A DNA stretch of 64,000 bases from Paeniglutamicibacter sp. Y32M11 (GTDB lineage Bacteria > Actinomycetota > Actinomycetes > Actinomycetales > Micrococcaceae). The translations under genes and the position numbers were made by a program. Below are positions 28,985 through 50,562 of this stretch, in pieces; position 1 is the stretch's first letter, and each line of letters opens with the position of its first letter. Under the pieces are notes generated by a model. That model was not told where the DNA came from. It worked only from the letters and a program-made list of their open reading frames with translations, and did no database searches. The stretch is taken from positions 868,001 to 932,000 of the forward strand of contig NZ_CP079107.1 in the NCBI RefSeq assembly GCF_019285735.1. Direction: 5' to 3'.

Positions 28985-31279
28985 ATGAACGTCATTATTG
29001 GTTTTTCTGCATCGTCTTATGACTATGTTCGGGGGGAATCGGACACTTTTTCGGCTGCTGTTAGCGGCGTCGTGTCCTCACTGCGGGCAAACCGCGGAGT
29101 TGTGCTCCGAGGTTGTGCTGGTGCCGGACACACGGAGGTCATCCAATCCGCATTGGAATCCCTCGGCTGGTCAACCGTGATGAACGTGGTTGGCACCGGA
29201 TATGCAAAAAATATCCGCTGGGGAGCATTGATGTTTCTGCTCTCGAAATTTGGTCTAAACCCTGAATCTTCGGTTTCGCACGTTTGTAGTGCCCTGAACG
29301 AATGGATTGAACAGGAATCAGCCAGTGGTTCTCGCGTAATTCAAGTCTTGCGTCCCGATCTTCTCGATCCATACTCGCGCACGGCTATCATGCGTTTAGC
29401 CAGTCGAGGTGGAGCTCGTGTTGTTGTCTTATGTGAAAACAACCACCCACTTGATCCTGAAACCTCAAGTCAACTGGCAAACGGCACGTACGCTTCGGTC
29501 GACCTCAGCCCCGTCGGACTTGCCGAAACGGGGAAAACTCTTCAACGGTGGCTGAACGCAAAAGTATCCCCGGCCGCGGTCTTACTGCTTTGGGAACGGT
29601 CCCATGGCGCTCTGGGCAAGCTTCATCAGGCGATGATATTGATGCAGCAATCAGGGTCCCTTATCGAACACCAGGGGGTCTTTGTGATTGCGCCCGTGCT
29701 TCAGGGCGTCGCAGAATCGGCCGTCAAGGACACCGTGAGTTCGAGTTTGGAGTGGTCGAGCGTTGAAAAGGGTTCAAGCTTAGATTCGCTGCATTCAGTT
29801 GCTCCCAGAAACCCAAGTGATGTTGCCCGGTTTATCACACAGGTCCACAAGATCGAACTTCCTCTCGAGCGCGCCATCATTCGACAGCGTCTTCAACTGA
29901 GTATCAAAAGCCTGATGGGAAATGGCGCAGAGATTAGCAAACACGATGCGGAATCGTGGCTGCTGGGGCAACTGGAAATCCTGTCTATTGGTCTGGCTCT
30001 CGAAGATGGGTTGCTCACCGAAGCAAGAAATTCTTGCAGTATTCTTTGTGCCGGTTCGTCCACTCTAGAAAATGGTCCATGGATCAACGACGTGGAGTGG
30101 CTGGAGGCAACCTCGTTAGTAGCTCAGGTGGCTGCTTTCAGCAACGATGAAGAACTTTTTTCCGTGCTGGCCTCGGCCATTGAAAGGCGGTACGAACGCC
30201 TCGAAGGTGCGATCCTCGGCGGGGTAAAAAGTCCCAGCCATGATAGGTTGCGAAGATTTGATCGCGCCATGCTCAACGCCCACTTTGCACGCGGAGATTG
30301 GCAACGCGCTCAGGTAGTGGCATTGCGGATGGTGGATGCGCCGTACGCGGATACACGTTCGTTGGAAGAGGCCCATTTCATGTTGGCTGTGATGGCCACC
30401 AACGCCGGCGCGTGGGACATCGCACGGGAGTTGATCGAGCCGATTCTCATACAGTCGACATATCTTGAAACTCCCTTGCGTGCCTCGGCCCAAGCGCTCC
30501 TCGCCTACGTCTCTGCCCAACTTGGTGACATGCTCAAAAGCGAAGGGCTTTGCATGGCGGCGAATGGTGGCGGACTACCGGCACCATCGGGCGCGGAGAT
30601 GATTCGAAACTACTACTTACTGCTGACCGTTAATTTGTTGGGCAGCAGTGGTGCCCAGACAGACGTTTCGCAGATTGAAGAGCAATTGAAGTTGTTCTCC
30701 GCCATACCAGCCTTCAGCGGAAGGGTCGCTTTGGCGCTGCAATTGACGCAGCAAAAGTACGTTGCGGATGTGGCGCCAGATGAGGATGGGAATGGTAAAT
30801 CGGCCTTGACCGTGGCCTTGGACGATCTAACGGTGGCGCTGAAAGGTGAGGATGAAACCGATATAGTCGAGGCGTTGCTCTCCGTTGCTGTGGGCGGAAT
30901 GGCACATGTTGTCCGATGCAGAAGCAACGCCGTGGTTGCTCGGTTGGGGCAACGCTCTAAACGGATTCTCTCCGGGAAGATGCAAAGGCTGTCCCGGGAA
31001 CAACTCTCCTTGGGCCTCGATTCAACGGCACCAGAACGCTTCGAGGGGCGCCATGACTACTGGGCGGCAGCACTTACGCACAAGGAGAATCGGGTCCTTG
31101 ATTTAGTTGCCAAGGGGCTGTCAAACGCTCAAGTTGCGTCACTTGAAGGTGTATCGGTACGAACCGTGGAGGGGCATCTCTACCAAATTTACTCGAAGCT
31201 GAGCCTCCACGGTCGGGCCGACCTCAAGACCATGGTCGGAGCCGTAGAACCTAGAGTCCCAGTTCTGGTGAACTCATGA
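28985..31279 (+). CDS. Large LuxR-type regulator with degenerate P-loop
   Basis: About 764 residues. The N-terminal P-loop position reads VLRGCAGAGHTEVI (around residues 38-50): the Walker A lysine is replaced by histidine. The region expected to hold Walker B (SRVIQVLRPDLLDP) lacks the acidic pair. A helical middle follows, and the C-terminus is a LuxR HTH: ENRVLDLVAKGLSNAQVA and VRTVEGHLYQIYSKL. This is the LAL/MalT-like architecture. The start is ATG 28985 (GGGGG upstream) or ATG 28964 (GGAG upstream). Its stop overlaps the next regulator's start by 4 bases. Its position at the head of the exopolysaccharide run suggests it controls that locus. Confidence 0.85.
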   Translation: MNVIIGFSASSYDYVRGESDTFSAAVSGVVSSLRANRGVVLRGCAGAGHTEVIQSALESLGWSTVMNVVGTGYAKNIRWGALMFLLSKFGLNPESSVSHVCSALNEWIEQESASGSRVIQVLRPDLLDPYSRTAIMRLASRGGARVVVLCENNHPLDPETSSQLANGTYASVDLSPVGLAETGKTLQRWLNAKVSPAAVLLLWERSHGALGKLHQAMILMQQSGSLIEHQGVFVIAPVLQGVAESAVKDTVSSSLEWSSVEKGSSLDSLHSVAPRNPSDVARFITQVHKIELPLERAIIRQRLQLSIKSLMGNGAEISKHDAESWLLGQLEILSIGLALEDGLLTEARNSCSILCAGSSTLENGPWINDVEWLEATSLVAQVAAFSNDEELFSVLASAIERRYERLEGAILGGVKSPSHDRLRRFDRAMLNAHFARGDWQRAQVVALRMVDAPYADTRSLEEAHFMLAVMATNAGAWDIARELIEPILIQSTYLETPLRASAQALLAYVSAQLGDMLKSEGLCMAANGGGLPAPSGAEMIRNYYLLLTVNLLGSSGAQTDVSQIEEQLKLFSAIPAFSGRVALALQLTQQKYVADVAPDEDGNGKSALTVALDDLTVALKGEDETDIVEALLSVAVGGMAHVVRCRSNAVVARLGQRSKRILSGKMQRLSREQLSLGLDSTAPERFEGRHDYWAAALTHKENRVLDLVAKGLSNAQVASLEGVSVRTVEGHLYQIYSKLSLHGRADLKTMVGAVEPRVPVLVNS

Positions 31280-33678
31280 ACGGCCACGTGCAAGCACCTG
31301 GGACAGTGGATCCGTCACTGTTGATTTTGCTTCAAGACTCCACAAAAGCGGGCATCTTTATCGTCGGGGGACCTGGCTCCGGGAAGTCCTATGTGATTGG
31401 CCATCTGGCGCGATCGTTGGGTGTGGATCACGCTGTCGTGCTCATTCGCTCCGTGGCAGATGCATCGGATGAAGCATACACAGCTTTTGTGCCTTTGCTC
31501 GGTCATTCCGTAGTTGAGGCTGAAGTGTTTGACGTGGTGCAAAATTTTCAGCAATATTTGGAAAGCATCAAGCCGCCGCGTAGTTCTACGGGGCTCATAC
31601 CCCGACCAGTCGTCATCGTTGAGGAGTCCCAGCAGCTCGATGAAGCAAGTTGTTTCGTCCTCCATCAGATTGCTCTTGCTGGACAGGCAACTTTGGTCTT
31701 GACTTTGACGGCGGGAGTGAAATCTCGCCCAGGCGTGGAGTCTTTGTTTGATTCCGGGCTATTCGGAATCAAAAAACTCGCGCCCAAGAATGTCGATGAG
31801 ATGGTTTCCGTCGCCAAGGAAGTTCTCGACGGAGCTGCCACGGAAATTACGTTTGATATGCTCACGCGGCTCTCCGGTGGGATCCCCGCGTTGAGTGTCG
31901 CCTATCTGAATGATCAAGTCCGCAACCATTCACTCGCACGCCACGGAAATGTGTGGGCGCTGGGTCCCACAAACATCAGTGCGGGTGGTGAAGTTGAGCA
32001 ATGGACCGTCGGAATGTTGGAACGCTTCAGGCCGGAGGAGAAGGAAGCGTTGAGGTTCCTGGCTCGTCACGGTACTTGCCTAATAGCCGACGTGGAAGAA
32101 AGTTGCGGAGCTTCGGTGACCCGCCTCATTGACTCGGGATTGGTCGCCAATCGCGAGGGATTCCTCCATCTCAGCTCGGAGCTGTTGAGATATTCCCTGT
32201 CTTCGCAACTGTCGTTGGTCGGTAAGTCATCGGGCCCAGATGCTGAAGATTTCGCAGACAATGGGTCAAAGCGTGATGATGAGGTTCACCCTTGGGAAGT
32301 CGATTCGGAAACAGGGCTTCGGGTTCTAGGTGCGCTTGCCAAACAAGGGGAGCACCTCCGCGTCAGGGCATGGACGGAGTACCTAATCTCGTCAGCTGAG
32401 AGACCAGAAATTGCCGAGGCCGCCTTACTTTATGCCGCTAATGCCCTAGTGGAGGACGGCAGCAGTGGGGAGTTCTTAGCCCAAGAAATAGCGCGTATCA
32501 CGGCTAGAGAATTGGACACCCTGGGTTCGTCTTTGCCACTTGTTCAAGCTTGGCAGAGGTACAAATCTGGAGATTTGGTGAAAGACGTTCTCATCATCTT
32601 GAATGCGGCGGGAGATCCAGTTCCGGGCGAGCACGAAAAACTCAGAGAACGTCTACATACGGAGCTTGCTGCAACAAGCACAGGCTGTGAACCCCTATAC
32701 CAGTCGCCCCGATGGCAAGTTATCCAAGCGGTTTCTCGGGCATTGGCTGGACATGAAGCTGAGGTGCGTCGCGCTGTGGCCGCTTGCCTGTCGGAGATGG
32801 ACCTTACGCAGCCTGTCGTGGCAGCGGAACTTGATTTGGTGATTGGTCTGTTGAACTTGCGATCTGGTCGTCTCTCTGACGCGAAAATTGCCTTCAACTC
32901 AGTGATGGCAAGGAAGAGAGTTCGGGAGTCTGGCATCCAATTAGTTGCAGAGTCAATTAGTCGATGGATCGACTGCCAAAACGATGAATTTGGCTCGAAG
33001 AATGAGTCAGCGACCGGGCCCGACCGCGGTTTTCTGACCTCATTGGCTTCGCTCTATGCGTTGGCGGCGGACAGTTACCAAGATCCTTCGGCATCAAGCC
33101 GTGTCGAACTTCGGCATCTTGCCACCCGGCACCAAGGGCTCGGTGAATATGTGCTTGCCGCCGAGGCCTCGGTTCTCCTGTTGCGTCTTGAGGAAAACCT
33201 AGGAGTGAAGGGAATCGATTGGCCCGACGGTCCTTGGTACTCAGCTGCTGACGTCGTCAGCCGGGAATGGAATAGCACATTCGTTAAGGCGCTGACCGAA
33301 GCGGGCGACAATGCAGCCAGACTCGGTCAAATTGAGTGGACCATTTACGCTCTCGCGAGAGCAGTTCGCCACCCCGACATGGTGGATCAGCCACGGTCCA
33401 AGGGGCGTGTAGTACGAAGATTGATGGCACTCCGGGACCTTCTCGGCCCTCAGCTTTTGCCCGAAATCAAAGAAGCGATTGATTTGGGGAGATTAACGGA
33501 ACGCGAACAAGAAATCGCCGCTCTGGTTGCCGAAGGAATAAGCAATCAGGAAATCGCCCGCAAGCTGACGCTCTCACGGCGAACTGTGGAGGGACACCTC
33601 TATCGCATTTATTCGAAGCTTGGAATCGACGATCGAAGCCAACTTGAGAATTTCAATGAGGGAGTACGAGAAATATGA
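31276..33678 (+). CDS. Large LuxR-type regulator with intact P-loop
   Basis: An 800-residue paralogue of the preceding regulator. Walker A is intact: FIVGGPGSGKSYVIGHL (lysine near residue 38). Walker B is PVVIVEESQQLDEAS near residue 114. The middle is helical and TPR-like. The C-terminal HTH (EREQEIAALVAEGISNQEIA, RRTVEGHLYRIYSKLGI) is almost identical in its recognition helix to that of the upstream protein, so both probably bind the same DNA. ATG 31276 overlaps the upstream stop, and its own stop overlaps the cytidylyltransferase start, an unusually tight coupling of regulators to a biosynthetic gene. Confidence 0.88.
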   Translation: MNGHVQAPGTVDPSLLILLQDSTKAGIFIVGGPGSGKSYVIGHLARSLGVDHAVVLIRSVADASDEAYTAFVPLLGHSVVEAEVFDVVQNFQQYLESIKPPRSSTGLIPRPVVIVEESQQLDEASCFVLHQIALAGQATLVLTLTAGVKSRPGVESLFDSGLFGIKKLAPKNVDEMVSVAKEVLDGAATEITFDMLTRLSGGIPALSVAYLNDQVRNHSLARHGNVWALGPTNISAGGEVEQWTVGMLERFRPEEKEALRFLARHGTCLIADVEESCGASVTRLIDSGLVANREGFLHLSSELLRYSLSSQLSLVGKSSGPDAEDFADNGSKRDDEVHPWEVDSETGLRVLGALAKQGEHLRVRAWTEYLISSAERPEIAEAALLYAANALVEDGSSGEFLAQEIARITARELDTLGSSLPLVQAWQRYKSGDLVKDVLIILNAAGDPVPGEHEKLRERLHTELAATSTGCEPLYQSPRWQVIQAVSRALAGHEAEVRRAVAACLSEMDLTQPVVAAELDLVIGLLNLRSGRLSDAKIAFNSVMARKRVRESGIQLVAESISRWIDCQNDEFGSKNESATGPDRGFLTSLASLYALAADSYQDPSASSRVELRHLATRHQGLGEYVLAAEASVLLLRLEENLGVKGIDWPDGPWYSAADVVSREWNSTFVKALTEAGDNAARLGQIEWTIYALARAVRHPDMVDQPRSKGRVVRRLMALRDLLGPQLLPEIKEAIDLGRLTEREQEIAALVAEGISNQEIARKLTLSRRTVEGHLYRIYSKLGIDDRSQLENFNEGVREI

Positions 33679-34115
33679 TTCGCATAGGATATGCGGCGGG
33701 AGCTTTTGACCTTTTCCACGTCGGTCATCTCAATATTTTACGTATGGCCAAGAGCAGATGTGATTTCCTCATTGCTGGCGTGGTCTCCGACGAAATTTGC
33801 GAAGCGACGAAGGGTAAGCGGCCGATTGTGCCGCTCGAGGAACGGCTGGAAATTGTATCCAGCATTGAATTTGTTGATTCGGCCATCGCTGATATGTGGC
33901 CCGATCGCCTGGATACCTGGCGTGAGGTGGGTTTCAATGTCTTCTTCAAAGGTGATGACTGGTATGGCACTGCTCGTGGTCTTGAACTAGAGCGGCGATT
34001 CGCGGAGGTAGGAGTGGCCGTCGAATATTTCCCCTACACCGTTCACACGTCATCAACCGGATTGAGAAGTGCCCTAGATGCGCTATCGGCTACGTCTCGA
34101 CCATTGGGGACTTAG
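33675..34115 (+). CDS. Cytidylyltransferase family protein (TagD-like)
   Basis: A 146-residue nucleotidyltransferase. The N-terminal GAFDLFHVGHLNILRMAKS carries the HxGH signature (VGH) and the ISSTGLR-like motif appears as HTSSTGLRSAL near residue 125. Size and motifs match glycerol-3-phosphate cytidylyltransferase, which activates an alcohol phosphate as a CDP derivative. ATG 33675 overlaps the stop of the second LuxR regulator. The CDP-alcohol phosphotransferase at 40948-41721 is the natural consumer of its product. The alcohol (glycerol, ribitol or other) cannot be told. Confidence 0.82.
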   Translation: MIRIGYAAGAFDLFHVGHLNILRMAKSRCDFLIAGVVSDEICEATKGKRPIVPLEERLEIVSSIEFVDSAIADMWPDRLDTWREVGFNVFFKGDDWYGTARGLELERRFAEVGVAVEYFPYTVHTSSTGLRSALDALSATSRPLGT

Positions 34116-34296
34116 AGCCGGAAATTTAAATTCATAAACATATTAGTACTTGACTATTTTATTAATCAAAAACAAATGCAAGTTACGCGATTTGTAGGAA
34201 CGGTTCGAATCTTTGGCCATTCAGGGTATTTGCTACCCGATAAAGCGAATGCACGTAGATACATATTGATCCTCGAACAGAGCGAAGGAGAGCACC

Positions 34297-35730
34297 ATGG
34301 CAAATGGGGGGCGGAGCGATTTCTTACGGGTAAATGACCTATTTCGTCAGCTTCGGAGGCGATGGAGAACGCTGCTGGTGACTGTGGCGGCTACGGTGGC
34401 CCTTTCGGCCGCTGGCGCGCAGTTAATACCCGCAGAATATTCTGCGGTTGCCACTTTGACGGTTTCGCCCATTACGACGAGCCCATTTTCCTCGGCAGCT
34501 GTGAACCAACAAATCAACATCACCACAGAACGCGCGATCCTTGGGTCGTCGCAAGTCGCAACGTTGGCGATTAAGACACTCGGTCACGATATTGGGCCCG
34601 AAGACCTGATGCGCCATACGGAGGTCGCTGCACCTCAGGGGTCTCAGATTCTTGAAGTTACAGTTTCTGCTGACACCCCGGAAAAGGCAGCTGCACGAGC
34701 AAATGCCTTGGCCAGTGCCTATCTGATTTCTCGTGCAGATGGGGCCAAAGAGATCGCCGACGCCTTTATCGCCGATCTTGATGGTCAAATAAAGGAAATC
34801 GAGAATAAGGCCAACGCAGATTCACAGGAGCGGCAGCAGCTTTGGGATTTGCGGGCCCAGCGAACGACCTTGAAGCTTGTTGCGCTCGCACCAGGCCAAG
34901 TCATCGGATTGGCCATTCCGCCGACAGAAAAGTCTTCCCTCGATGCCAAAATCTTCTTGGTTGGAGGGCTCGTCGGGGGGGGTCTGTTAGGTCTGGCCTT
35001 GTCTCTCCTGCGTGATCGATGGGACCGTAAAGTCCGCTTTGCGGATCGCCTCGTTGCGGCTACTGGCGCAACGGTCTATACCCTCAACCAGGATGACGAA
35101 GAGGAATCTTTGCGCTGGATCCTCAGGTTCCTGACACGGTCCTACGAGCCCAACCAACGACCAGGTAGGCCCGCAGGATTCTTGGGTTTGATGCCTGCGG
35201 ATCCAAGCGTGCTCGTTTTAAAGCTCCGTGACATGGCACAAGCCCATGGACTCGATTCATGCACGGTCGATAAAGATGTCCTAAACGGTCAAGCTCTCGA
35301 CGCGGGTTGGCCTTTGGAGATCGATCGAATCGAATTGGGCTCAAGGGACCTGGTGTTGATGGAACTCGCCGAATTCGTCGCCGGTTCGAGACTGGCCAGT
35401 ATCTCAGAGCGCTTCCTGGAATCCCTCGTACTGGTCGTACATCACAAGACCAACATAAAAGATGTCATAGCCGTTGTTGGCCAAGCACGGGATCTGCCCC
35501 ATATGAGGCTCATCGTAGTTTTTTACGACGGACGTCCGCGGCGAAGAGCAACCGACACACCACAAACAACAACCACGCCAAGCGGTACAGAACCACAAAA
35601 TTTGAAGGACCCTTCGCCGTTTGAATCGAAAGTAAGCCAACAGGACATGTCAGTTAACAACCCGCTGAAATCAATTGAGCGGAAGTTGGACGCAGGGCAA
35701 CGTCTCATCGCCGGAAGGAAAGAAACATGA
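34297..35730 (+). CDS. Wzz-like polysaccharide chain-length protein with P-loop-less C-terminal domain
   Basis: A 477-residue protein. The first membrane helix (about 24-44) and a second (about 225-245, IFLVGGLVGGGLLGLALSLL) frame an extracytoplasmic Wzz domain. The cytoplasmic part (250-410) sits where a BY-kinase ATPase would be: RDRWDRKVRFADRLVAATGA precedes it, as in kinase fusions. I see no Walker A, A' or B, and no Tyr-rich tail; the C-terminus is a polar Thr/Pro/Ser segment. It probably sets polymer length without kinase activity. ATG 34297 has GGAGAGC upstream; the 181-base gap before it is AT-rich and may hold a promoter. It overlaps pssD by 4 bases. Confidence 0.8.
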   Translation: MANGGRSDFLRVNDLFRQLRRRWRTLLVTVAATVALSAAGAQLIPAEYSAVATLTVSPITTSPFSSAAVNQQINITTERAILGSSQVATLAIKTLGHDIGPEDLMRHTEVAAPQGSQILEVTVSADTPEKAAARANALASAYLISRADGAKEIADAFIADLDGQIKEIENKANADSQERQQLWDLRAQRTTLKLVALAPGQVIGLAIPPTEKSSLDAKIFLVGGLVGGGLLGLALSLLRDRWDRKVRFADRLVAATGATVYTLNQDDEEESLRWILRFLTRSYEPNQRPGRPAGFLGLMPADPSVLVLKLRDMAQAHGLDSCTVDKDVLNGQALDAGWPLEIDRIELGSRDLVLMELAEFVAGSRLASISERFLESLVLVVHHKTNIKDVIAVVGQARDLPHMRLIVVFYDGRPRRRATDTPQTTTTPSGTEPQNLKDPSPFESKVSQQDMSVNNPLKSIERKLDAGQRLIAGRKET

Positions 35731-36176
35731 AAATCCTGTTTGTCACATCAGCTGGCGGTCACCTGGCTCAACTACTGCCGCTCAAATCGTGGTGGCAAGA
35801 ACATGAACGAGTTTGGGTAACCTTCAGACTGCCAGAAGTCGAAGCTGCCTTGGAAGGCGAGACTGTTGTCTGGGCACATCATCCGACGACGAGAAACGCA
35901 AAAAACGCCGTGAAGAACCTCTTCTTAGCGTGGCCGACCCTACGGCACGAGCGCCCCGACGTTGTGGTCTCCATTGGAGCGGGGGTCTCCGTCCCATTCT
36001 TCCTAGTTGCCAAACTTCTTGGGATCAAGACCGTTTATATTGAGTGTTTTGATCGCATCACGATGCCCACATTGAGTGGTCGAATTTGCTACCCGATGGC
36101 AGATCTATTCTGTGTGCAATGGGCGGAGCAGCAGAAATACTACCGAGATGCTCTGAACATTGGACCAGTGTTATGA
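35727..36176 (+). CDS. pssD: PssD-like glycosyltransferase accessory subunit (Alg14 type)
   Basis: A 149-residue protein of the Alg14/PssD family. MKILFVTSAGGHLAQLLPL at the N-terminus, the RPDVVVSIGAGVSVPFFLVA segment near residue 75 and VYIECFDRITMPTLSGR are typical. These proteins have a membrane-associated N-terminus and anchor the catalytic PssE/Alg13 partner, together forming one GT28 enzyme that adds the second sugar of the repeat. It overlaps the Wzz gene by 4 bases (ATGA) and pssE likewise. Confidence 0.88.
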   Translation: MKILFVTSAGGHLAQLLPLKSWWQEHERVWVTFRLPEVEAALEGETVVWAHHPTTRNAKNAVKNLFLAWPTLRHERPDVVVSIGAGVSVPFFLVAKLLGIKTVYIECFDRITMPTLSGRICYPMADLFCVQWAEQQKYYRDALNIGPVL

Positions 36177-36745
36177 AACTGGAAAATGGCGATCAAAATA
36201 TTGTGGTGTCCCTCGGGACTGACCACCATCGATTCGATCGGGCCGTCGATTGGATCGACGATTGGCTCGAAACACAAGAAACGCAACCGAGGTGTTTGAT
36301 TCAGCATGGATCCAGTAGACAGCCTCGTCAAGGAAACGGGGTTGACCGAATGCCTCGGACCGACTTGCTGGACTTGTACGCTGGAGCCGATGCGGTAATA
36401 GTGCAAGGAGGACCGGGGTCCATCTTGGACGTCAGGGAAATGGGTAAAATCCCGATCGCAATTCCGCGACGACCAGAACTCGACGAAGTCGTTGATGGGC
36501 ATCAGATTGCTTTCGCTAGATTTATGGCGAGCCAGGGGGAAGCTCTATTGGCTGAATCGGCTGATGACATGGATAGACTGCTGAAATTGATCTTGGCGGA
36601 TCCGAATCATTTTTCGACGCCCCCACGACACGCAGATGCCGGGCATGCGGCCGGACTACTTGCTGCCGCGCTTGACACACTTGAGAGTCATCAGCGACCT
36701 GATGCGATGATCAGCCGGCTTCGACAGATGTGGGGCCACCATTAA
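36173..36745 (+). CDS. pssE: PssE-like glycosyltransferase catalytic subunit (Alg13 type)
   Basis: A 190-residue protein starting at ATG 36173 inside the pssD stop. NIVVSLGTDHHRFDRAVDWI opens the GT-B C-terminal half, and the UDP-sugar binding region is VIVQGGPGSILDVREMGKIP followed by IPRRPELDEVVDGHQ (around 90-125), the usual PssE/Alg13 signature. With PssD it makes a UDP-sugar glycosyltransferase. The donor cannot be read. It is the last gene of the left arm; a small hairpin terminator follows. Confidence 0.88.
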   Translation: MKLENGDQNIVVSLGTDHHRFDRAVDWIDDWLETQETQPRCLIQHGSSRQPRQGNGVDRMPRTDLLDLYAGADAVIVQGGPGSILDVREMGKIPIAIPRRPELDEVVDGHQIAFARFMASQGEALLAESADDMDRLLKLILADPNHFSTPPRHADAGHAAGLLAAALDTLESHQRPDAMISRLRQMWGHH

Positions 36746-41721: not shown

Positions 41722-44700
41722 TTGGTGTCTTCTTTCGGTGGTGCACTGGATGCCGGAGTCTCAGCCGTTGGTACCGGGATTTTCAGCTCGGTCCCTGGAC
41801 GAGGCAACACCGACTGCGAAGGAACTTCTGCCGATCGCTTTGCACCGGTGGACTCAGAAGGCGAACTCTTGGCTACCGAGGGGCTCGGCAGCGCCGACGG
41901 CTTCCTTGATGGTTCGGGTGCGCTCTTCGTGGATGGTGCAGCGGATGTGACACTGGGCTTGGTCGGCGCCGGGGCGACACTTGGTTTAGTTGGTTCCGCT
42001 GTGGTGGACTCCTGCTTCTGTAGCTCCGGGGCCTTCTTCAGTAGGTTGGCCTGGGCGCCGTCGACCAGCGTGGCCTGAGCCTTGAGTTCGAAGGAATGGC
42101 TCGGCGTTGTCCGGTAGTTGGAATGGACCTCGGCCGCAATCACGTTCTGGCCCGTGACGAAGGCGCTGGCCGGGAGTTCGAACACCACTGGATTGGCGTT
42201 GACGACGGCGACCGATGGGGCAGTCGTCGCGTAAGTGGTGCTCGTGATTGTCCCCGCGGGCATGTTGACCCGTTTCGCTTCGGTGCCATTGACGTAGATG
42301 ACAATCCCGTCATCGGCCCGCGTGGTGATTTCTACGGTATTGACGGCCGAGACATTAGCGAGCGTAAAGCTCTTGCGGTATTGCGAAGCGATGGGCCGAG
42401 TTGCGACGGTGGGGAAGGTGGTACCAAGTCCGGTCCAGCCCACACCCAACGGGGCAGCTCCGATGTCCCACGTGGAATCGTCGAAGGAGGTTTGCTTCCA
42501 GCCGGAAGCCGGTTCACTGTTCTCGTAACGGTAGGACCAGTTGCTACCCGCCGTGATGAGTTGCTGTGTCTGCGGCGGGATGACAGCCCCGGCGACGACT
42601 ACGACCGCAGTGCTGGCCGAAACATTGTTAGCGGTATCGATCGCCCGAACCGCGTAGCGGCCCTGAGCCAGTGCCGGAACCTGAACGGTGCGAGCGGTGG
42701 TGGTGGTCGCAATGACCCTGTCACCACGCAAGACCTGATAGCCGGCCGGGGTGCCACTCGATGCCCCCCACGAGATCGTGTCGGTGGTTCCGTCGGAGGT
42801 TGCCGTCAGCGATCCGGGGGTGCCCGGCGCCGTGTGATCGTTCATTGCGAATCGAGCAAAGCCGCCGCTCCATTGCCCCGCCCCATTAGTTCGAACGGAT
42901 GAAACGAGATCCCCGCCGGTCCAGAGTGTGCCGGTACTGTCTACAAAGCTGCCCCACACCCCGTAGCCGACTCGACCCTTGATGATGGGGTTGAAGTCCG
43001 GTACGTATGCGCCGGTGGCTGCATCCCAGATACCGACCAGGTTAATCTTGTCGGCGATGGTCCAGTCGTTTCCGAGGCTGGGCCAGAGCGTGGCTCCGGA
43101 GTAATTCCAATGGCCACAGTGGCATCCGGCATACACGAGCCCGTTGGCGGAGCTCACATCTTGGAAGTCGCCGCCCTGACGAGTGATGTTGGCCGAGAGC
43201 CGATTAAAGTTGGCTGGGTTGTAGCTGAAAAGATTGTGTTCGGAGCCGCCGAGCCAGATTCTTCCACCCTGTTCCGCCAGACCGAACTGGAAATGGGTTG
43301 TAGCGCTCGGTGTCCAGTCCCAGGGGATGACCGCCGCTCCCGCCGCGGTGGAGATGGCAGCGGCCGTATTAGTGGTGGTTGTATTCGAGGCCATGAAGTA
43401 TCCCGATGCGTAAAGCCGGGTTCCATCATCGGAGCCTTCAACATCGGTGACAGTGCCGGCGAACGCGGGGTTCCAGCTGGCGTCGGGAGTTCCATTGGAA
43501 ATCTGGACGCGTGCTGCGGCACGTGAGTAGACCGAATTGGTTGTCGTTCCGCCGGTGAGGTGAGTGAATGCCCCGCCAATGTACAGCCACGATCCCTCCA
43601 CACTCAGGCTCCTGACCTGAACCGCACCGCCGGAAATCCGGTTTTCCAACTGGACATCCCATGTTGAGACGGTGTCGCCGGTGACCGGGTTCAGTGCGAC
43701 GATTCCATTAGCCGCTTTTCCGTTGGCCACGGTGAATTCCCCGCCGGCGATGACGGTGCCATTGGGCAGCACCGTGACTTCTTTGACCTCGTTGTTAAAG
43801 GTCGGTCTGAAGGTAGTCACGAATTCGCCGGTGGTGACGTTGAAACCTGCAAGATACGGCTGGGTGACCCGACCGGTCCCCGCAGAATCACGTTGTACCT
43901 GCAGGAAATTTCCTGCAGCGTAGACAGTTTGCCCTGATTGCGCGAACGACTGGATTTCGGTATTCAGCTCGCCGGTTCCGTTGGCCAGACCGTTAACACC
44001 CCATACGGTGGGCTGGGCACCGGTATTCTGGACTGCCTTGTTCTCCATCTTGGGAAGACCGGCATTGGGGATCGGAGCGAAGGCCAAATTGCTTTGCAAC
44101 AGGCGGGGACGGATGAACATCTGGGTGAACGGCAGCGGTTGTCCCGTAGTGGCCGAAGCGCTCCAAATGTAGCTGGTAGCGGAGTTGACACCGCGGGCCT
44201 GCGAGCCGAAGGCCCACCCTTGGTACCAGCTTTGGTTCTGGTTTTCGGAGGTGATGACACGGCGGAGCGTGTTGTCCAGCCCGAAGCTTGCGCTAGTTCC
44301 ACCCGTACCGTTCTGGTTCCCATTGAAGGTAAAGGAAGTGACCGGCGTTGCGGACGAGAAAGCCCACGACCAGCGATTCTTTTTGGAGACCTTGAAAGTC
44401 GATTCTTGCCAGGTCGTCCCGTCAGTTGATGCCGCTCTGCGCAGCCGGATCCCGTCGGTCAGCGCAGCAGGTGATGTGTCGTTGAGTAATCCATCAATGG
44501 TGCGCGAGTGCAGCTGGCGCGGCGTAAAAGCACCCGTGCCGGTGACGACGGAGTTCACTTGCGCAGTTGTGCCCAACCCTTCGTAGTTCTCTTTCCAGCC
44601 TTGTCTTCCTCGGCCGATCAACACCCAACCGCCGCCATTGGTTACTTGGTCACAATAGAACTGCTCCGGCGCCGACATCGCGGGGGTATAGAGCCAGTAG

Positions 44701-44903
44701 AGCCCACTGTCGGCTTGAGGATCGAGCTGTTTGGCTTCCCAACAGGAAGCTGCAGCGTTTAACTGTGTAGAGCCGTCATGGATAACTTCGGCTGCTTGTG
44801 CGGGTGCCGGACCCAACAGGAATCCTGCGGCCAGGGCAATAACGCCGAAAACGGCACATGCGGATTTCGGTGCTAGACGTGATTTTCTAATGCGCGAGTA
44901 CAT
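41718..44903 (-). CDS. Giant secreted protein with fibrinogen-like YCDxxxxGGGW domain and beta-propeller
   Basis: About 1061 residues. A signal peptide ends near AAGFLLGPAPAQAAEV. Then: a fibrinogen-like domain (about 35-270) with FYCDQVTNGGGWVLIGRGR; a repeat region (about 290-680) of short beta-propeller blades such as VTVLPNGTVIAGGEFTVANG and GSWLYIGGAFTHLTGG; a fibronectin III-like module (about 690-770); a jelly-roll-like module (about 780-935) with FDDSTWDIGAAPLG; and a Pro/Ser/Lys-rich tail of about 110 residues without LPxTG. It looks like an extracellular glycan-binding or scaffold protein. ATG 44903 has GAGGAG upstream. It is second in the right-arm operon. Confidence 0.8.
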   Translation of the reverse strand: MYSRIRKSRLAPKSACAVFGVIALAAGFLLGPAPAQAAEVIHDGSTQLNAAASCWEAKQLDPQADSGLYWLYTPAMSAPEQFYCDQVTNGGGWVLIGRGRQGWKENYEGLGTTAQVNSVVTGTGAFTPRQLHSRTIDGLLNDTSPAALTDGIRLRRAASTDGTTWQESTFKVSKKNRWSWAFSSATPVTSFTFNGNQNGTGGTSASFGLDNTLRRVITSENQNQSWYQGWAFGSQARGVNSATSYIWSASATTGQPLPFTQMFIRPRLLQSNLAFAPIPNAGLPKMENKAVQNTGAQPTVWGVNGLANGTGELNTEIQSFAQSGQTVYAAGNFLQVQRDSAGTGRVTQPYLAGFNVTTGEFVTTFRPTFNNEVKEVTVLPNGTVIAGGEFTVANGKAANGIVALNPVTGDTVSTWDVQLENRISGGAVQVRSLSVEGSWLYIGGAFTHLTGGTTTNSVYSRAAARVQISNGTPDASWNPAFAGTVTDVEGSDDGTRLYASGYFMASNTTTTNTAAAISTAAGAAVIPWDWTPSATTHFQFGLAEQGGRIWLGGSEHNLFSYNPANFNRLSANITRQGGDFQDVSSANGLVYAGCHCGHWNYSGATLWPSLGNDWTIADKINLVGIWDAATGAYVPDFNPIIKGRVGYGVWGSFVDSTGTLWTGGDLVSSVRTNGAGQWSGGFARFAMNDHTAPGTPGSLTATSDGTTDTISWGASSGTPAGYQVLRGDRVIATTTTARTVQVPALAQGRYAVRAIDTANNVSASTAVVVVAGAVIPPQTQQLITAGSNWSYRYENSEPASGWKQTSFDDSTWDIGAAPLGVGWTGLGTTFPTVATRPIASQYRKSFTLANVSAVNTVEITTRADDGIVIYVNGTEAKRVNMPAGTITSTTYATTAPSVAVVNANPVVFELPASAFVTGQNVIAAEVHSNYRTTPSHSFELKAQATLVDGAQANLLKKAPELQKQESTTAEPTKPSVAPAPTKPSVTSAAPSTKSAPEPSRKPSALPSPSVAKSSPSESTGAKRSAEVPSQSVLPRPGTELKIPVPTAETPASSAPPKEDTK

Positions 44904-44923
44904 GAGTGGCTCCTCGTTCTTCC

Positions 44924-45778
44924 TCAGCAAGACGAATCATTGGGAAATTGGTGATTGACGACTACCCAAGATTGAGCCTTGAGTGAGAGGTCATAGATGT
45001 TCACCGCGGTGCGTGTACCCGGGGGAGTCGCATCGGTCACAATGTGCCCGTCGGGTTCCGTGACTTTGATTGCGCTGGAGTCGAGACAGACGAAAACCCG
45101 TATTGATTTGGCGCCCTTGACGTTGAGGTCTTGAACCCGGGGCTCACCAACCACCTGAACTTTTCCTGTCTGGGACCACCCATTGGATGCATATTCAGCG
45201 AACTGGGATTCCAATTCCAATTCGGCGATGCCGGAGGCGATCTTCGAATAGTCCGGTACCTTGATGGCTTTTTCCGGAACTTGGCGACCGGGTGAGATTC
45301 CTTGTGCCCCGGTGATGAACTTCTTCACGGGCTCCGATTCGGAAGCTTGGGCAGAACGCGCATTTGATGTATTGGGCCAGCTCTTGGGCACGGGCGGGAA
45401 AGACGGTAATGGTTCCGCTTTCGGGTCCGTTGTGGGTGCGGGTTTAGCCACGGGAGCAATTGGCTTTGCTGCCGGTGCACGGCTGGTTTTTGGTTCCGTC
45501 GAAGCGTGGCTCGAACTTGGGGCCGCCGCCGGGGCCTTCTGCTGAGCTGCTGAGCTGGATGGCAGGGCGCTGCTCACTATTTGGCTGTTGCCCCCTGGTA
45601 TCGCTGGATCGCCTCGTGATGCTGCCTGAGCTGTGCTCACTGCAATGAACGCTGCAATGGACAAGCCGCCAACCCATATCCACCATTGACGCCAGCTGGA
45701 ACGGGATTGCCCGTGTGTTCGTTTTGCACCGTCGCCGGGCTCCCCAACGCCCCGGGACGAAGGTCCCATTTCCTGCAC
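44924..45778 (-). CDS. Secreted or membrane-anchored protein of unknown function
   Basis: I do not recognise this 284-residue protein. It has a basic N-terminus, one hydrophobic helix (about 31-53, WWIWVGGLSIAAFIAVSTAQ), a disordered Ala/Pro/Ser/Lys stretch (55-150) and a C-terminal folded part (about 165-284) with VPDYSKIASGIAELELESQF, FVCLDSSAIKV and a final cysteine that may pair with the one in VFVCLD. GTG 45778 has GAGGAG 5 bases upstream. It is the first gene of the operon with the giant secreted protein, 20 bases downstream, and may be its partner. Confidence 0.7.
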   Translation of the reverse strand: MQEMGPSSRGVGEPGDGAKRTHGQSRSSWRQWWIWVGGLSIAAFIAVSTAQAASRGDPAIPGGNSQIVSSALPSSSAAQQKAPAAAPSSSHASTEPKTSRAPAAKPIAPVAKPAPTTDPKAEPLPSFPPVPKSWPNTSNARSAQASESEPVKKFITGAQGISPGRQVPEKAIKVPDYSKIASGIAELELESQFAEYASNGWSQTGKVQVVGEPRVQDLNVKGAKSIRVFVCLDSSAIKVTEPDGHIVTDATPPGTRTAVNIYDLSLKAQSWVVVNHQFPNDSSC

Positions 45779-46684
45779 TTTAACTCCTCATTGGTCTACG
45801 TGCGGATAAGTTCCCACGCTTATTCGCAACCGATGCCGTGGTGATCCCCCAACCACGTGCCCTTGCACTGTAGGGCGCATGCGGAGGGTACTTCAAGGTC
45901 GGTTGAGGGTTCTTAGGACTGCGTGAATGGGTGATCAGGAAAGTCGAGTGAGCGGAGTCCCTGATCCAAGTGCTTAACGAGTATCTGCCCTCCTTGGGAC
46001 AGGTCCCGGACAAGAGTTTCAGCCGTATTTTCGAGATAGGAATACTCGTGGCTCAACGCCCGAGGAGCGATAGCGTTAGAGGTGTCGATTTCCGCTTCGA
46101 CGGCCAGAAATCATTAGTAGTTGGTTTTTGGCACGTAAGGGGCTAGCGGGTTAAGACCCGGCTCTCACTCCTTGCGCTCAGGACGGGCCGGCGGCGTGCA
46201 GTCGAAATCGTGAGACATTTCGATTTGCCCCCCAGACGTCGCCGACCCCCTCCGGCGGGAATACATATGACAACTAGCTTGGACTCGTGACACGGCAGAG
46301 GTCTGGTTTCGCCCCAGAAGTCTTACAGCCACGGCTTCGTCCTAGGACGAAGCAAGCACGGAAGAGAAGTTGGCTGTTCGCCTTATTCGTTGAATCGGGA
46401 TTTTGCGCGACATGTGGCATGTTGGTTTGCCTGACTGGCCGGGCTTTGAATTTGTCGCTCATCGGGAAAGCGCCGAACGGACCGCACCAGAGCCGGGGTT
46501 CTCGGAGAAACAAGACGTGGAGGCCAGCGGGCTTGCGCAACGGAAACACTGTCCCAGGGTGGGTATCCAGATATCCAAGACAGGAAATAGCGCGGTGAAT
46601 CGCGGTAGGACACCACATAATTGACCTGAGCGACGAGCAGCATCCAGATGTTCCGCCGAATGCAACGAATCCGAACATGACAAA
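45779..46684. other. Gene-less interval with a perfect 20-base palindrome
   Basis: About 900 bases between the secreted-protein operon and the GH16 terminator. Open frames on both strands lack ribosome sites and recognisable protein features. Visible structure: a perfect palindrome GCTTCGTCCTAGGACGAAGC at 46334-46353, an inverted repeat TCGAAAT...ATTTCGA near 46202-46224, and CGGGT/ACCCG arms near 46147-46162. It should contain the promoter of the right-arm operon. Confidence 0.5.
46334..46353. repeat. Perfect 20-base palindrome
   Basis: GCTTCGTCCTAGGACGAAGC has no loop and reads the same on both strands. It could be a dimeric operator; it has no T-run of a terminator. Confidence 0.6.
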
Positions 46685-46736
46685 GGACCGCCCACTATCA
46701 GACTCACGAAGGTGAATGGATAGTGAGCGGTCCCTT
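46685..46736 (-). terminator. Terminator of the GH16 gene
   Basis: GGACCGCCCACTATC (46685-46699) pairs with GATAGTGAGCGGTCC (46719-46733), one mismatch, with a T-rich end on both strands (TTTG). It lies 44 bases past the GH16 stop. Confidence 0.7.
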
Positions 46737-46779
46737 TGGTGGCTCGCGGTCATTCGCGGCCACTATGGAACTGTGTTGC

Positions 46780-48405
46780 TTAGCCCTTGTACGACCACGC
46801 CTTGACGTAGTCAACCTGGAAATCGGAGTGGTCCTTGGTCACTGAAGAATTGGTGACGTCTGGCATGCCCCAATAAGGGGATCCATACTGAGTGTTCAGT
46901 CGCATATGGAATTTCGCATTGGTTTCGAAGGCTGCCTCGTATGCTGCATTGCCAGCGCGGTCCACCGACTTGAATTCTTTGCCATCAAACAGCCATTTCA
47001 TCCCTTGTGGGGTCCATTCGAAGGTCCACGTATGGAATTCGCTGGATAACGTGGAAGTGACAGGAATCCAGGAATTGGTCTTGCTCTTACCGGTTTGGTC
47101 GTAGTGGAGCGTGCCCTCGGCCCGATTCTGAGGGTCAAACGACACAGACGTCGGGGTCCCGTAGGCCTCCATGATGTCGATTTCTCCGCCCGTAGCACCG
47201 CCATCGGGGCGCAGCCAGAATGCCGGCCAGATGCCCTTCGAATTATTGGCCGTCAGCGGCAGCTTGGCGCGCATTTCCCAGCGTCCGTACTTCTGTGAGA
47301 ACTTGCCAATCGTGTCGATGTAGGCGGTAGAGAACCAGCGTTCGCCGCTCTTAACAACAGGAGTATCGAGCTTCTTGCCCTCCAAGTGGAGCAGTCCGTT
47401 GGAAGTGCTGGCGTTGTCTTTTGAGATTACCGCGCGATCGTACGAAAGGACGCCATGCGTCGAATCGTCACGAACGATCCACTTATTGAGACTAGTTGTC
47501 CCAAAATCATCGGAGAAGACCGGGGTGCCCCACTGCGAGCCGACGTTTGACGTATCGGTGTCGGGGAGGGGTGCCGGAGTGGGGGTTGGAGTCGGCGTTG
47601 GCGCCGGAGCCGGAGCCGGATCGCTGACCTGGGTTAGAGGCAGAATCTTCAAATCGTCGAAGGCAAGTGTCATGGCCTGGCTGCCGCTGCCTCGATATCC
47701 GCTGATCGAGGTCATGCCCTTGGTCGTGATGGCACTCGCAGACGAATCAGTGAACGAGGCCGACCATTCGGTTGGCTCGGTCTGTCCAACCGCCCAGACC
47801 TTGGACTCAACAACTACTTTAGGCTTTCCGGTAACACGTAGCTTGAGGTTGAACTGCTGGCCAGCCTTTACCGTCAACGGCAGTGAAACTGATTTAAGTT
47901 GGGTCGTTCCACCACCGGAGTTCCAACGCGAGATCTCAATTACGGTTTTTCCCGTGGGCAAGATGCGCAGAGTTGAACGGTAGTTTCCAGTACCGCTATC
48001 GCGACCAAAGAGCGAGGTGTACACACCGGCTGACCCGGTGGGTAGCACCGGTACCTTGACCTTGACCGAAGATTCGGAATCCATCAGGTCGTACCTGGTA
48101 CGGACGGTGGTGGTGCTGCTGGCGGACGACAGGGGCATCAACGCCGTGCCGGCAAAAACCGAGAGGTTGCTGGCAGTGCTGTAGTAATTGACACCGCTTG
48201 GCGATTTGCCCCACGAGCCGGTGACGGTGCGAGTCATCGAATCGTCGACAATCGGATCTCCAGCCTCCATGGTGGCAGCGTTTGCTGGGGATACTGGGCC
48301 GGTAAAGCCCGCGGTAGTCAACATCGCGGCCATGAGGATGGCAGCGGGAACCCTGAAGCTGAACTGGCGAGGGGTGGGAGATGATTCTTGGCTTGAATTA
48401 GACAT
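46780..48405 (-). CDS. Secreted GH16 family glycosyl hydrolase
   Basis: About 541 residues. A signal peptide (RVPAAILMAAMLTTAGFTG ... ANAA) is followed by a beta-sandwich domain (about 45-255), a Pro/Thr linker (PAPAPTPTPTPTPAP) and a C-terminal GH16 catalytic domain (about 285-541). The catalytic motif ExDxxE is complete: GGEIDIMEAYG. FSQKYGRWEMRAKLP and GIWPAFWLRPDGGA are typical of beta-glucanase-like GH16. It likely cuts the polysaccharide of this locus or a related beta-glucan. The start ATG 48405 has no clear ribosome site. Confidence 0.88.
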   Translation of the reverse strand: MSNSSQESSPTPRQFSFRVPAAILMAAMLTTAGFTGPVSPANAATMEAGDPIVDDSMTRTVTGSWGKSPSGVNYYSTASNLSVFAGTALMPLSSASSTTTVRTRYDLMDSESSVKVKVPVLPTGSAGVYTSLFGRDSGTGNYRSTLRILPTGKTVIEISRWNSGGGTTQLKSVSLPLTVKAGQQFNLKLRVTGKPKVVVESKVWAVGQTEPTEWSASFTDSSASAITTKGMTSISGYRGSGSQAMTLAFDDLKILPLTQVSDPAPAPAPTPTPTPTPAPLPDTDTSNVGSQWGTPVFSDDFGTTSLNKWIVRDDSTHGVLSYDRAVISKDNASTSNGLLHLEGKKLDTPVVKSGERWFSTAYIDTIGKFSQKYGRWEMRAKLPLTANNSKGIWPAFWLRPDGGATGGEIDIMEAYGTPTSVSFDPQNRAEGTLHYDQTGKSKTNSWIPVTSTLSSEFHTWTFEWTPQGMKWLFDGKEFKSVDRAGNAAYEAAFETNAKFHMRLNTQYGSPYWGMPDVTNSSVTKDHSDFQVDYVKAWSYKG

Positions 48406-49068
48406 TGGGGATGGGGGTCTCCAAATATGCGCTTGACCACCCAGACGGGCCAATTAGGATGCGGGGAACGGGTACTGGAACGAATATTGTTGTGAGACGC
48501 ATTGAGCCTTTCATGCACCAACTTCGTTAGCAAATCGTGACATTGAGGTCGCGAAACCTTCGAATCGCGCCTTTGAAGTGTGCTTATGCCCCGTCTTTCG
48601 AACGTTTCGATTCGGAGGCCAGTGGCAAAAGTCACTTTCCTCCGTGGAGCGAATCAAGGTTGAAAATTGCCGTTCTCGCATGCTGTTTCCACGATTTTCG
48701 CACGTAATCGTGAAGTTGGATCCTCGATTGTTTGTCCACTTATTTCTTCGGTGCTTTGCATTCCGACGTCGCGTAAGGTTCGCGTCCTGTGCAAGTGGTT
48801 TCGGGTCTCGATGGAGAAGCGCGAGCTGCCGGACACCGTGGGGATCAGCGTACTGCTTACCCGTGTATCAGCTTGGTGTGTTGCATAGCGTAGAAACACG
48901 GCCATGCAAATTGGCGAACTTGGGGGCTCTCGCTTTGGGGGTTGGGGCCGCATCGATTCAGGCAAGGATGGAGAACTTTGCGTACCGAAATCAAAAGTGC
49001 ATTCCGCAGCGGCGCCAGCGGGGGAGCAAGGGGAGTTTTGCCGTCGTTGTTGAGGGAAGTTTGCGCTG
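48406..49068. other. Divergent regulatory gap between GH16 and the sugar transferase gene
   Basis: About 660 bases without a supported gene. It must contain promoters in both directions. I see only a short inverted repeat (AGTGGCAAAAGTCACT near 48620-48635) and no convincing consensus promoter, which is consistent with regulated transcription, perhaps by the LuxR pair. Confidence 0.4.
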
Positions 49069-50562
49069 ATGTCCGCTGAACTGGGTGACGGGGTTCTTGA
49101 ATCAGTGCTCGGAATAGCTCCTCCATGGCGAGGGGCCCGACCGGCACTCAATAGCAACGCTACAGCGTCATTGCCCGCTAGAGCGCGACGTCGACGTTGG
49201 GTGAAGCTCCTGACAATTGTCGATGCTTTGGTAATTTCCTCAGTCATGGTCTTCGCGTGGAATACCGTCGCGGATGTCGAACGTGGAGGACTCTTCCCTT
49301 ATCTTCCGATTATGGCTTTTTCGTGGTTCCTGATGTTGGGTATCGGGGGAGCAAGGCGAGCGGAAGTCCTAGGTCGCGGGGTGGATGAATATCGAAGGGT
49401 TGTCGGGGCCAGCCTGCTCACGGTAGGACTCATGGCATTCACCGGCATGGAATTGAGACTTGAGGGCACCCGGCAGATCGTATTCTCCGCGATTCTTGCG
49501 GGACCCCCGGCATTGTTGTTCGCTCGGTGGATGCTGCGGAGATTGCTGCGCCATCGGGCGAAAAGCGGGGCCACGCTATCAAAGGTGGTTGTCATCGGAT
49601 GCGCCAGCGATATCGAGTACGTGGTCCGCCGGGTCTCCAAGGCATCATCAGCCGGCTACCAAATAGTGGCACTCGTTGAAGACACAGGAACTTCCATGGA
49701 GCTGGAACCGCTGGTTCCGGTGACGCACAACCCGGAAGACCTAGAACACATGATCAGCACGCATGGTGCAGATGCGGTCATCGTCGCGGGCCCGCTGAAC
49801 GCTGGCAAGGATGCAGTGAGAAATCTGGGATGGGAACTGGAAAGACTAGGAGCCGAGATGATCTTGGCTTCGAACCTGACAAATGTTGCCAGTTCTCGGA
49901 TTCACATCAGAGAAGTGGATGGACTCCCGCTGATGCATGTTGAACGCCCTGCCCTTTCTGGCGTGAGGATGCGAGCCAAGCGTGCGGTGGATATTTGCCT
50001 GACGGCTATTGCTTTGACGATCCTGCTCCCAGTGTTGTTAATGATTGCTATTGCCATCCGGATGGATTCGAGGGGACCTGTAATCTTCGCGCAGCGGCGT
50101 ATCGGCAAACGGGGTCAGGAATTCACCATGCTTAAATTCCGTACGATGTGTCTTGACGCGGAATCACGGCTGGACGGACTCAAAGAGCAAAACGAAGGCG
50201 CCGGACCGCTGTTCAAAATGAAGGCCGATCCCCGAGTGACGAAGATCGGCAAGATGCTTCGTAGGACTTCTCTAGACGAGCTCCCACAGCTGATCAACGT
50301 CATCAAGGGGGACATGTCTCTCGTGGGGCCGCGACCGCCGCTGCCATGCGAAGTTGAGGCCTATGAAGGTCACACTTTTCGGCGTCTGCTGATTCGACCA
50401 GGACTAACTGGACTTTGGCAAATCAGTGGAAGGAGCAACCTCAGCTGGGAAGACAGCGTCAGGCTCGATCTCTATTACGTCGAGAACTGGTCACTGATGG
50501 ATGATCTTGTAATCATGTGCCACACAGCCAAGGCGATGATTCGCCCGAGCGGTGCGTATTAG
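49069..50562 (+). CDS. Undecaprenyl-phosphate sugar phosphotransferase (WbaP/Cps14E type)
   Basis: A 497-residue polyisoprenyl-phosphate hexose-1-phosphate transferase. Four membrane helices (first about 45-65, last about 145) and a Rossmann-like middle (KVVVIGCASDIEYVVRRVSK) precede the C-terminal catalytic domain: KRAVDICLTAIALTILLP (anchoring helix), QRRIGKRGQEFTMLKFRTM, TSLDELPQLINVIKGDMSLV and GPRPP, ending in RPGLTGLWQISGRS. It starts repeat-unit synthesis on the lipid carrier. ATG 49069 has GAGGGAAG upstream. It stands alone at the right edge of the island, divergent from GH16. Confidence 0.93.
   Translation: MSAELGDGVLESVLGIAPPWRGARPALNSNATASLPARARRRRWVKLLTIVDALVISSVMVFAWNTVADVERGGLFPYLPIMAFSWFLMLGIGGARRAEVLGRGVDEYRRVVGASLLTVGLMAFTGMELRLEGTRQIVFSAILAGPPALLFARWMLRRLLRHRAKSGATLSKVVVIGCASDIEYVVRRVSKASSAGYQIVALVEDTGTSMELEPLVPVTHNPEDLEHMISTHGADAVIVAGPLNAGKDAVRNLGWELERLGAEMILASNLTNVASSRIHIREVDGLPLMHVERPALSGVRMRAKRAVDICLTAIALTILLPVLLMIAIAIRMDSRGPVIFAQRRIGKRGQEFTMLKFRTMCLDAESRLDGLKEQNEGAGPLFKMKADPRVTKIGKMLRRTSLDELPQLINVIKGDMSLVGPRPPLPCEVEAYEGHTFRRLLIRPGLTGLWQISGRSNLSWEDSVRLDLYYVENWSLMDDLVIMCHTAKAMIRPSGAY

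Follow-up and report, generated by a model that had tools for sequence, protein, structure and literature searches.

Does the exopolysaccharide locus described here decorate its polymer with a phosphate-linked alcohol, and would a CDP-alcohol phosphotransferase be the enzyme that attaches it? The locus spans approximately 28964-50562 of a 64,000-nucleotide stretch of DNA (hereafter the window), which corresponds to bases 868001-932000 of the one-contig 4.17-Mb genome of Paeniglutamicibacter sp. Y32M11 (NZ_CP079107.1; genome G000 in our numbering). Sixteen window proteins were scanned with Pfam and NCBIfam, and every component named in an earlier interpretation made from the DNA letters alone (the sequence-only reading) was found where it had been placed, i.e. 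an initiating sugar transferase, PssD/PssE, GT2, Wzx, Wzy, Wzz, GH16, a PF01467 cytidylyltransferase-like protein (CT) and a PF01066 CDP-alcohol phosphotransferase (CDP-OH). The initiator, Wzx, Wzy, Wzz and glycosyltransferases mark the region as a Wzx/Wzy exopolysaccharide locus. We give a probability of about 0.6 to the reading that this locus carries a two-step CDP-alcohol branch and yields a polymer with phosphodiester-linked alcohol groups; judged from its genes, the two-enzyme side branch probably attaches a small phosphate-linked alcohol.

The proposed maker of the CDP-alcohol, CT (33675-34115, plus strand; PF01467, 56.7 bits for a cut-off of 21), and the proposed user of its product, CDP-OH (40948-41721, minus strand; PF01066, 36.6 bits for a cut-off of 22), were each sought by profile search in a family sample of 120 genomes from 32 genera, with an E value of 1e-20 or lower required for CDP-OH. 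As relatives in the sample do not count as independent, the Fisher p value for the pair is to be taken with caution. CDP-OH of the window type was present in 37 of the 120 genomes, and CT scores were bimodal (37 genomes with at least 194.9 bits and 30 with at most 121.0 bits). Window-type CT and CDP-OH occurred together in 36 genomes and were both missing from 82, with a single genome holding CDP-OH alone and another CT alone (p 2.5e-28). In 34 of the 36 pairs the two genes shared a contig, 1.8-20.0 kb apart (median 7.7 kb); the remaining two pairs were on different draft contigs. Each of the two exceptions is close to a contig end, with ~1.0 kb of contig beyond the CDP-OH match (two separate aligned pieces) in G053 and ~1.8 kb beyond CT in G082. 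The low-score CT group served as an internal control and showed a weak association with window-type CDP-OH (14/37 genomes vs 16/83, p 0.04). This near-perfect and positional co-occurrence gives strong comparative support to the view, already put forward in the sequence-only reading, that CT and CDP-OH form one branch of the locus, and the pairing of the two enzymes looks real.

A second, paralogous couple is linked elsewhere in the same genome. At ~2.366-2.368 Mb (locus L012; G000:C1:2352000-2371900), another CT and another CDP-OH gene sit among GT2-like genes (assigned by eye, with one giving a match to the window GT2), together with three PF04464 proteins, an IspD-SDR fusion, an ABC exporter and an LCP protein, a gene content that leads us to regard L012 as a wall-teichoic-acid (WTA) locus. 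This second CT is 45-51% identical to the window CT, scores 159.9 of the 165.4 bits required for TagD and has RTTGISTT, a form of the RTxGISTT that we take to be the TagD signature. The low-score CT group is called TagD type after this one protein, its members not having been tested singly. WTA-type CDP-OH was found in 25 of the 120 genomes, all 25 with a low-group CT, located 1.4-3.1 kb away in 24 of them and on another contig in one; five genomes with a low-group CT had no WTA-type CDP-OH. Since both couples co-occur separately across the 120 genomes, each CDP-OH type keeps its own CT type, and the occurrence of one CDP-OH type is independent of that of the other (nine genomes with both, p 0.63). 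The WTA CDP-OH paralogue (L012:15372-16193, G000:C1 ~2.367 Mb) has a His where the window protein has D130, the fourth signature Asp, and is still accompanied by a TagD-type CT in 25/25 genomes.

To look more widely, one genome per species (84,980 species) was scanned with four CDP-OH query sequences. This returned 145 CDP-OH relatives, the best 80 loci of which (actinobacterial by record title) were retained, read for up to 10 kb in either direction as far as the contig extends, and searched by phmmer with the window proteins as queries. CT was found in 59 and Wzy in 60 of the 80 CDP-OH loci, alongside Wzx (62), GT2 (61), Wzz (56, with a second Wzz query matching in 8), a fibrinogen-like secreted protein (64), PssD (37), PssE (37), the initiator (24) and GH16 (16). 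Loci with both CT and CDP-OH came from Rothia, Kocuria, Arthrobacter relatives, Microbacterium, Actinomyces and Propionibacterium. Where a Wzx or Wzy homologue was present (64 loci), CT was found in 48 and the fibrinogen-like protein in 63; the 16 loci without Wzx and Wzy homologues held CT in 11 cases and a weak fibrinogen-like match in one. The couple is therefore kept in another type of locus as well, exemplified by L086, in which the order is LuxR, LuxR, initiator, CT, GT4, CDP-OH. An open reading frame (ORF) family (cluster 16) was also seen near the locus in 21 of the 80 loci (L049:16842-17384 among them), and its translation looks SRPBCC-type by eye.

In the window the two genes of the branch are split between two arms of the locus, which had been taken as a sign that both are required. 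We reject this argument. In two genomes of the same genus (G009 and G006), the CT, Wzz, PssDE, CDP-OH, GT2, Wzy and Wzx genes share a single strand, and the closest CT and CDP-OH ORFs among the 80 loci are a few bases apart, overlapping in Schaalia suimastitidis (L055). Because of this single-strand order and this overlap, the two-arm split of the window is, on comparative grounds, a rearrangement.

The identity of the alcohol turns on CT. The description of CT as TagD-like stands at the level of the fold, given the PF01467 match and an HxGH motif (H15-x-G17-H18) invariant in a 20-sequence alignment, and falls beyond it: CT reaches 63.1 of the 165.4 bits required by the NCBIfam TagD model (TIGR01518), and YTVHTSST takes the place of RTxGISTT. 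TagD identity was rejected on these two counts and, because CT is not TagD by cut-off or by motif, the earlier choice of glycerol or ribitol in particular is unsupported. By its sequence CT is rather a member of a separate clade marked by PYTxxTSSTxLR, in which P, Y, T / T, S, S / L, R are invariant in 20 CT sequences and at least 90% conserved over 59. Among its solved relatives, ethanolamine-phosphate and glycerol-3-phosphate cytidylyltransferases score best, followed in the 20-sequence profile search by 5x3d and 3glv (an LPS (lipopolysaccharide)-core-type protein), both above the choline-phosphate enzymes. PYTxxTSSTxL resembles the corresponding part of solved chain 5x3d (IPYTPGISSTRL), with PYT-SST-L common to both, and we take 5x3d to be the cytidylyltransferase domain of Fom1. 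According to an excerpt of PMC6697681, Fom1 converts CTP and hydroxyethylphosphonate to CMP-hydroxyethylphosphonate in the fosfomycin pathway. No gene for synthesis of a special alcohol was recognised in the window locus, and it is only for this reason that glycerol 3-phosphate is the default candidate. Similarly, when ORFs of at least 110 amino acids from the 80 loci were clustered, no alcohol-supply gene was recognised by eye among the 45 clusters listed, which were annotated by our own queries and include many antisense ORFs.

The motif of CDP-OH was confirmed as complete (D105xxD108G109xxA112R113x8G122xxxD126xxxD130), and its eight positions are invariant in the 80 homologous loci save A112 (77 A, 3 S). 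Enzymes of this family work at the membrane on nucleotide donors, and PF01066 is known for phospholipids and solutes; serving as the transferase of a polymer locus would be an unusual role for CDP-OH. Among solved structures the CDP-OH profile matched AF2299 first, then CPT1 and CEPT1, with PIPS and the inositol-phosphate transferase 4mnd also matching; CPT1, CEPT1 and 4mnd are users of soluble CDP-alcohols. PF04464 (the TagF/TagB-type transferase) had no match among the 16 window proteins scanned, nor was it the best match of any protein in the 80 loci (phmmer, three PF04464 queries), and the Pfam scan of these window proteins showed no LicD-family transferase, the 80 related loci not having been searched for LicD. 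For want of such matches CDP-OH is the only candidate seen for using the CT product. A role for CDP-OH as polymer initiator was considered and dropped, as loci such as L055 have no initiator in the 10 kb on each side, yet PF02397 is over its cut-off somewhere in 20/20 genomes tested.

The proposed pathway would run as follows. CT would join CTP to a small phospho-alcohol, glycerol 3-phosphate being the simplest candidate, to give a CDP-alcohol. Meanwhile the initiator, PssDE and GT2 would build an undecaprenyl-linked oligosaccharide of at least three sugars. At the cytoplasmic face, the membrane-bound CDP-OH would move the phospho-alcohol from the CDP-alcohol onto this oligosaccharide, an acceptor at a stage before Wzx being suggested by the place of the CDP-OH gene among those of GT2, Wzy and Wzx. 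Wzx would then flip the decorated oligosaccharide and Wzy polymerise it to a phosphodiester-alcohol polymer, with the co-encoded fibrinogen-like secreted protein as a possible binding or matrix partner.

Several observations weigh against this pathway. CT was missing from the DNA read in 21 of the 80 loci, and contig ends leave just seven of these 21 with under 20 kb. The Spearman correlation of species distances for CT and CDP-OH was 0.61, the second lowest of 15 gene pairs (44 loci, window included; 0.92 for Wzx/Wzy), and it fell to 0.30 over all loci holding both genes. In G002, of the same genus, a PssDE/Wzy locus has a divergent CDP-OH and a PF04464 protein, with no window-type CT in the 19.9 kb read. 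The conserved Arg of RTxGISTT is missing from CT, whose top NCBIfam score is to HldE domain II (66.4 of 181.5 bits required, vs 63.1 for TagD), although both scores are far short of their cut-offs. The G002 locus (L017; G002:C1:2290000-2309900) is also of note in its own right, in that PssDE, a Wzy-like protein, a divergent CDP-OH and a PF04464 protein stand together in it.

Of the other explanations, the one that we take most seriously, while holding it unlikely, is that the CT/CDP-OH pair makes a membrane lipid, transferring the phospho-alcohol to diacylglycerol or another lipid in the manner of the Kennedy pathway, and that this lipid serves as an anchor or helper of the polymer or acts as a head-group donor outside the cell. 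CPT1 and CEPT1, the best solved relatives of CDP-OH after AF2299, act on diacylglycerol, and PIPS matches too. Ethanolamine-phosphate cytidylyltransferase, moreover, is the best-scoring solved relative of CT, although over the best single domain it gives 66.6 bits vs 74.2 bits for TagD 1coz. A lipid acceptor in place of a glycan is thus possible. Against it, CDP-OH falls under the cut-off of every NCBIfam lipid-synthase model that it matched (archaetidylinositol phosphate synthase, 52.8/180; PIPS, 34.6/170; pssA, 19.7/107; ClsA, 19.6/240) and did not match the pgsA model at E 0.01, and a pgsA equivalog is encoded at another site in the genome (L001; 125.1, cut-off 109.1). The CDP-OH gene, furthermore, sits within polymer loci, and in 38 of the 80 loci its ORF is followed within 500 bp by the start of a GT2 ORF.

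The HldE score has its own possible meaning, since CT might be an HldE-like nucleotide-sugar enzyme (activating e.g. ADP-heptose or another sugar phosphate) that serves a glycosyltransferase, with CDP-OH acting separately on CDP-diacylglycerol. The lead of HldE domain II among the NCBIfam matches is a matter of 3 bits, and we consider this improbable, as it leaves unexplained why this type of CT tracks this type of CDP-OH (both in 36 of the 38 genomes with either). The CT motif also resembles that of 5x3d, presumably from Fom1. That enzyme uses CTP (PMC6697681, in excerpt). The same likeness could suggest a branch handling a phosphonate, as in phosphonate-tailored glycans, and not a phosphate ester. 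This we reject as very improbable because PEP mutase was over its family cut-off in 0/120 genomes, including the 36 with the pair; weaker matches in 117 genomes reached at best 144.9 of the 319.6 bits required. Finally, Wzz, PssDE, Wzx, Wzy and GT2 separate the two genes in the window, as might be expected if CT and CDP-OH were chance neighbours with no functional link, an explanation that the genome co-occurrence counts and the existence of two separate couples leave scarcely credible, even with due regard to the relatedness of the genomes. The CDP-alcohol branch of an exopolysaccharide locus is the explanation that we prefer.

The fibrinogen-like secreted protein (41718-44930, minus strand; 1070 amino acids) was not part of the sequence-only reading. 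Its YCDxxxxGGGW domain matches NF040941 (66.4 bits, cut-off 30), a domain present in 35/35 aligned members of its family, and the window protein had no Pfam match at E 0.01; its homologues match Fibrinogen_C (12/35) and, in the regions that follow the YCDxxxxGGGW domain, a DUF5122 beta-propeller (23/35) and a polysaccharide-lyase CBM-like domain (17/35). In the family sample the fibrinogen-like domain was detected in 13/37 CDP-OH genomes vs 4/83 others, a much looser link than that of CT. The N-terminal part has its best PDB matches in XEEL (E 4.7e-9), a serum lectin and intelectin-1, consistent with a GGGW-containing fibrinogen-like domain, but these matches cover just profile positions 12-85 of 242, short of the C-terminal half. 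Intelectins bind terminal diols, glycerol phosphate included, through a calcium/diol-binding site in that C-terminal half, and the domain might conceivably be an intelectin-type binder of a terminal diol of the phospho-alcohol. Relatives occur in L018-L097, with more than one copy in several loci, e.g. L034, L041, L047 and L056 (Rothia). A broader proposal would make CDP-OH the dedicated decorator of a Wzx/Wzy exopolysaccharide with a phospho-alcohol from the separate CT clade, the couple being widespread in Actinobacteria, with one version for exopolysaccharide and a parallel one for wall teichoic acid; in many loci the exopolysaccharide version would come with a dedicated fibrinogen-like secreted protein as binder of the decorated polymer. 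We hold this tentatively, at slightly under even odds.

The left arm opens with two large LuxR-type regulators (28964-33678), likewise not in the sequence-only reading, which overlap each other and CT. The first (28964-31279, plus strand) has a C-terminal GerE domain (PF00196, 43.7 bits) and overlaps the next ORF; the second (31276-33678, plus) combines AAA and GerE domains (PF13401 and PF00196) and overlaps the CT start. Such regulators, often paired in tandem, lie ahead of CT or of the initiator in at least two types of locus (L086:516-6091 and L100 as well as the window). CT is followed on the plus strand by a Wzz-type chain length protein (34297-35730; PF02706, 27.2, cut-off 25.5), the glycosyltransferase subunit PssD (35727-36176; NF041549, 120.5, cut-off 110) and its partner subunit PssE (36173-36745; NF041548, 57.4, below the cut-off of 120; PF04101, 25.8, cut-off 22). 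The PssE ORF is open from 36086, but its likelier start is judged to be the Met at 36173, which overlaps the PssD stop. A scan of 33400-37300 gave one promoter-like site vs 2.6 expected and seven terminator-like sites vs 4.1 (sd 2.2).

The minus-strand genes comprise the Wzx flippase (37217-38710; PF01943, 45.1 bits), the Wzy polymerase (38707-40014; PF04932, 38.1, cut-off 31.7) and the GT2 glycosyltransferase (40011-41129; PF00535, 70.4 bits from residue 75). The GT2 start is uncertain, in that its ORF has 182 bases in common with the CDP-OH gene and the GT2 start in L015 overlaps the CDP-OH stop only. Next to the fibrinogen-like protein gene lies that of a protein with no Pfam match and, by eye, a hydrophobic N-terminal stretch (44924-45778, minus), which has a homologue in 51 of the 80 loci and is co-conserved with the fibrinogen-like protein. 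Between it and a secreted GH16 glycanase (46780-48453, minus; PF00722, 65.4 bits) is a 159-amino-acid ORF (46274-46753) with no family match, which may not be a gene. The initiator, a polyprenyl glycosylphosphotransferase (49069-50562, plus; PF02397, 230.8 bits; TIGR03025, 419.7, cut-off 295.6), completes the locus.

The locus is bordered on the left by an ABC-F-like ORF, named from its translation, and on the right by a tetR gene, a tRNA-Gln at 51409 and housekeeping ORFs, the last also named from translations. G+C content drops to 0.53-0.56 across 28-40 kb, compared with 0.60-0.65 at 20-28 kb and 0.57-0.64 in the right flank. Because a tetR homologue (84% and 88% identity) adjoins the equivalent locus in G009 and G006, the site is common to the three genomes. 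The closest named relative of the window CDP-OH gene is that of Paeniglutamicibacter terrestris (98% identity).

Were the proposed branch to prove correct, several actinobacterial families would make a phosphodiester-decorated polymer with a kind of transferase that is not normally linked with glycans, a CDP-OH gene with a PYTxxTSSTxLR cytidylyltransferase in its vicinity would be a sequence marker for such polymers, and the acceptor question of orphan CDP-OH enzymes would become testable. In the titles and abstract openings of open-access literature on these genes and genera, we recognised no account of CT and CDP-OH paired within an exopolysaccharide locus.

Compared with known systems, the window locus combines familiar parts. 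Like the Wzx/Wzy exopolysaccharide loci with PssD/PssE (NCBIfam PssD/Cps14F and PssE/Cps14G), it has an initiator, PssDE, GT2, Wzx, Wzy and Wzz; it differs from them by its CT/CDP-OH branch, LuxR pair and fibrinogen-like secreted protein, and none of the 16 scanned proteins matched a tyrosine-kinase family. The presumed Fom1 domain (5x3d) has both PF01467 and the P-Y-T...S-S-T-x-L motif in common with the window CT. Fom1, however, acts on hydroxyethylphosphonate (PMC6697681, in excerpt), and the 120 sampled genomes had no PEP mutase over the cut-off. Kennedy pairs (CCT/ECT with CPT/CEPT) and the archaeal IPCT-DIPPS system likewise couple a cytidylyltransferase to a CDP-OH enzyme acting on a soluble CDP-alcohol. 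These pairs make lipids or a solute, whereas the window-type genes sit in polysaccharide loci. The genome's own WTA locus also has its paralogous CT and CDP-OH beside GT2-like genes but, unlike the window, a CT close to TagD along with the PF04464 proteins, IspD-SDR fusion, ABC exporter and LCP protein. Glycerol-phosphate capsules and teichoic acids (TagD with TagF/TagB) follow the same CDP-alcohol logic of a PF01467 cytidylyltransferase and a transferase, and excerpts of PMC8262930 and PMC5974469 describe TagF-like capsule polymerases in glycerol-phosphate-containing capsules. The TagF/TagB transferases of those systems belong to PF04464, whereas that of the window would belong to PF01066. 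On this comparison, the Wzx/Wzy polymer locus of the window would rely on a CDP-OH enzyme in place of a TagF-type transferase to add its phospho-alcohol.

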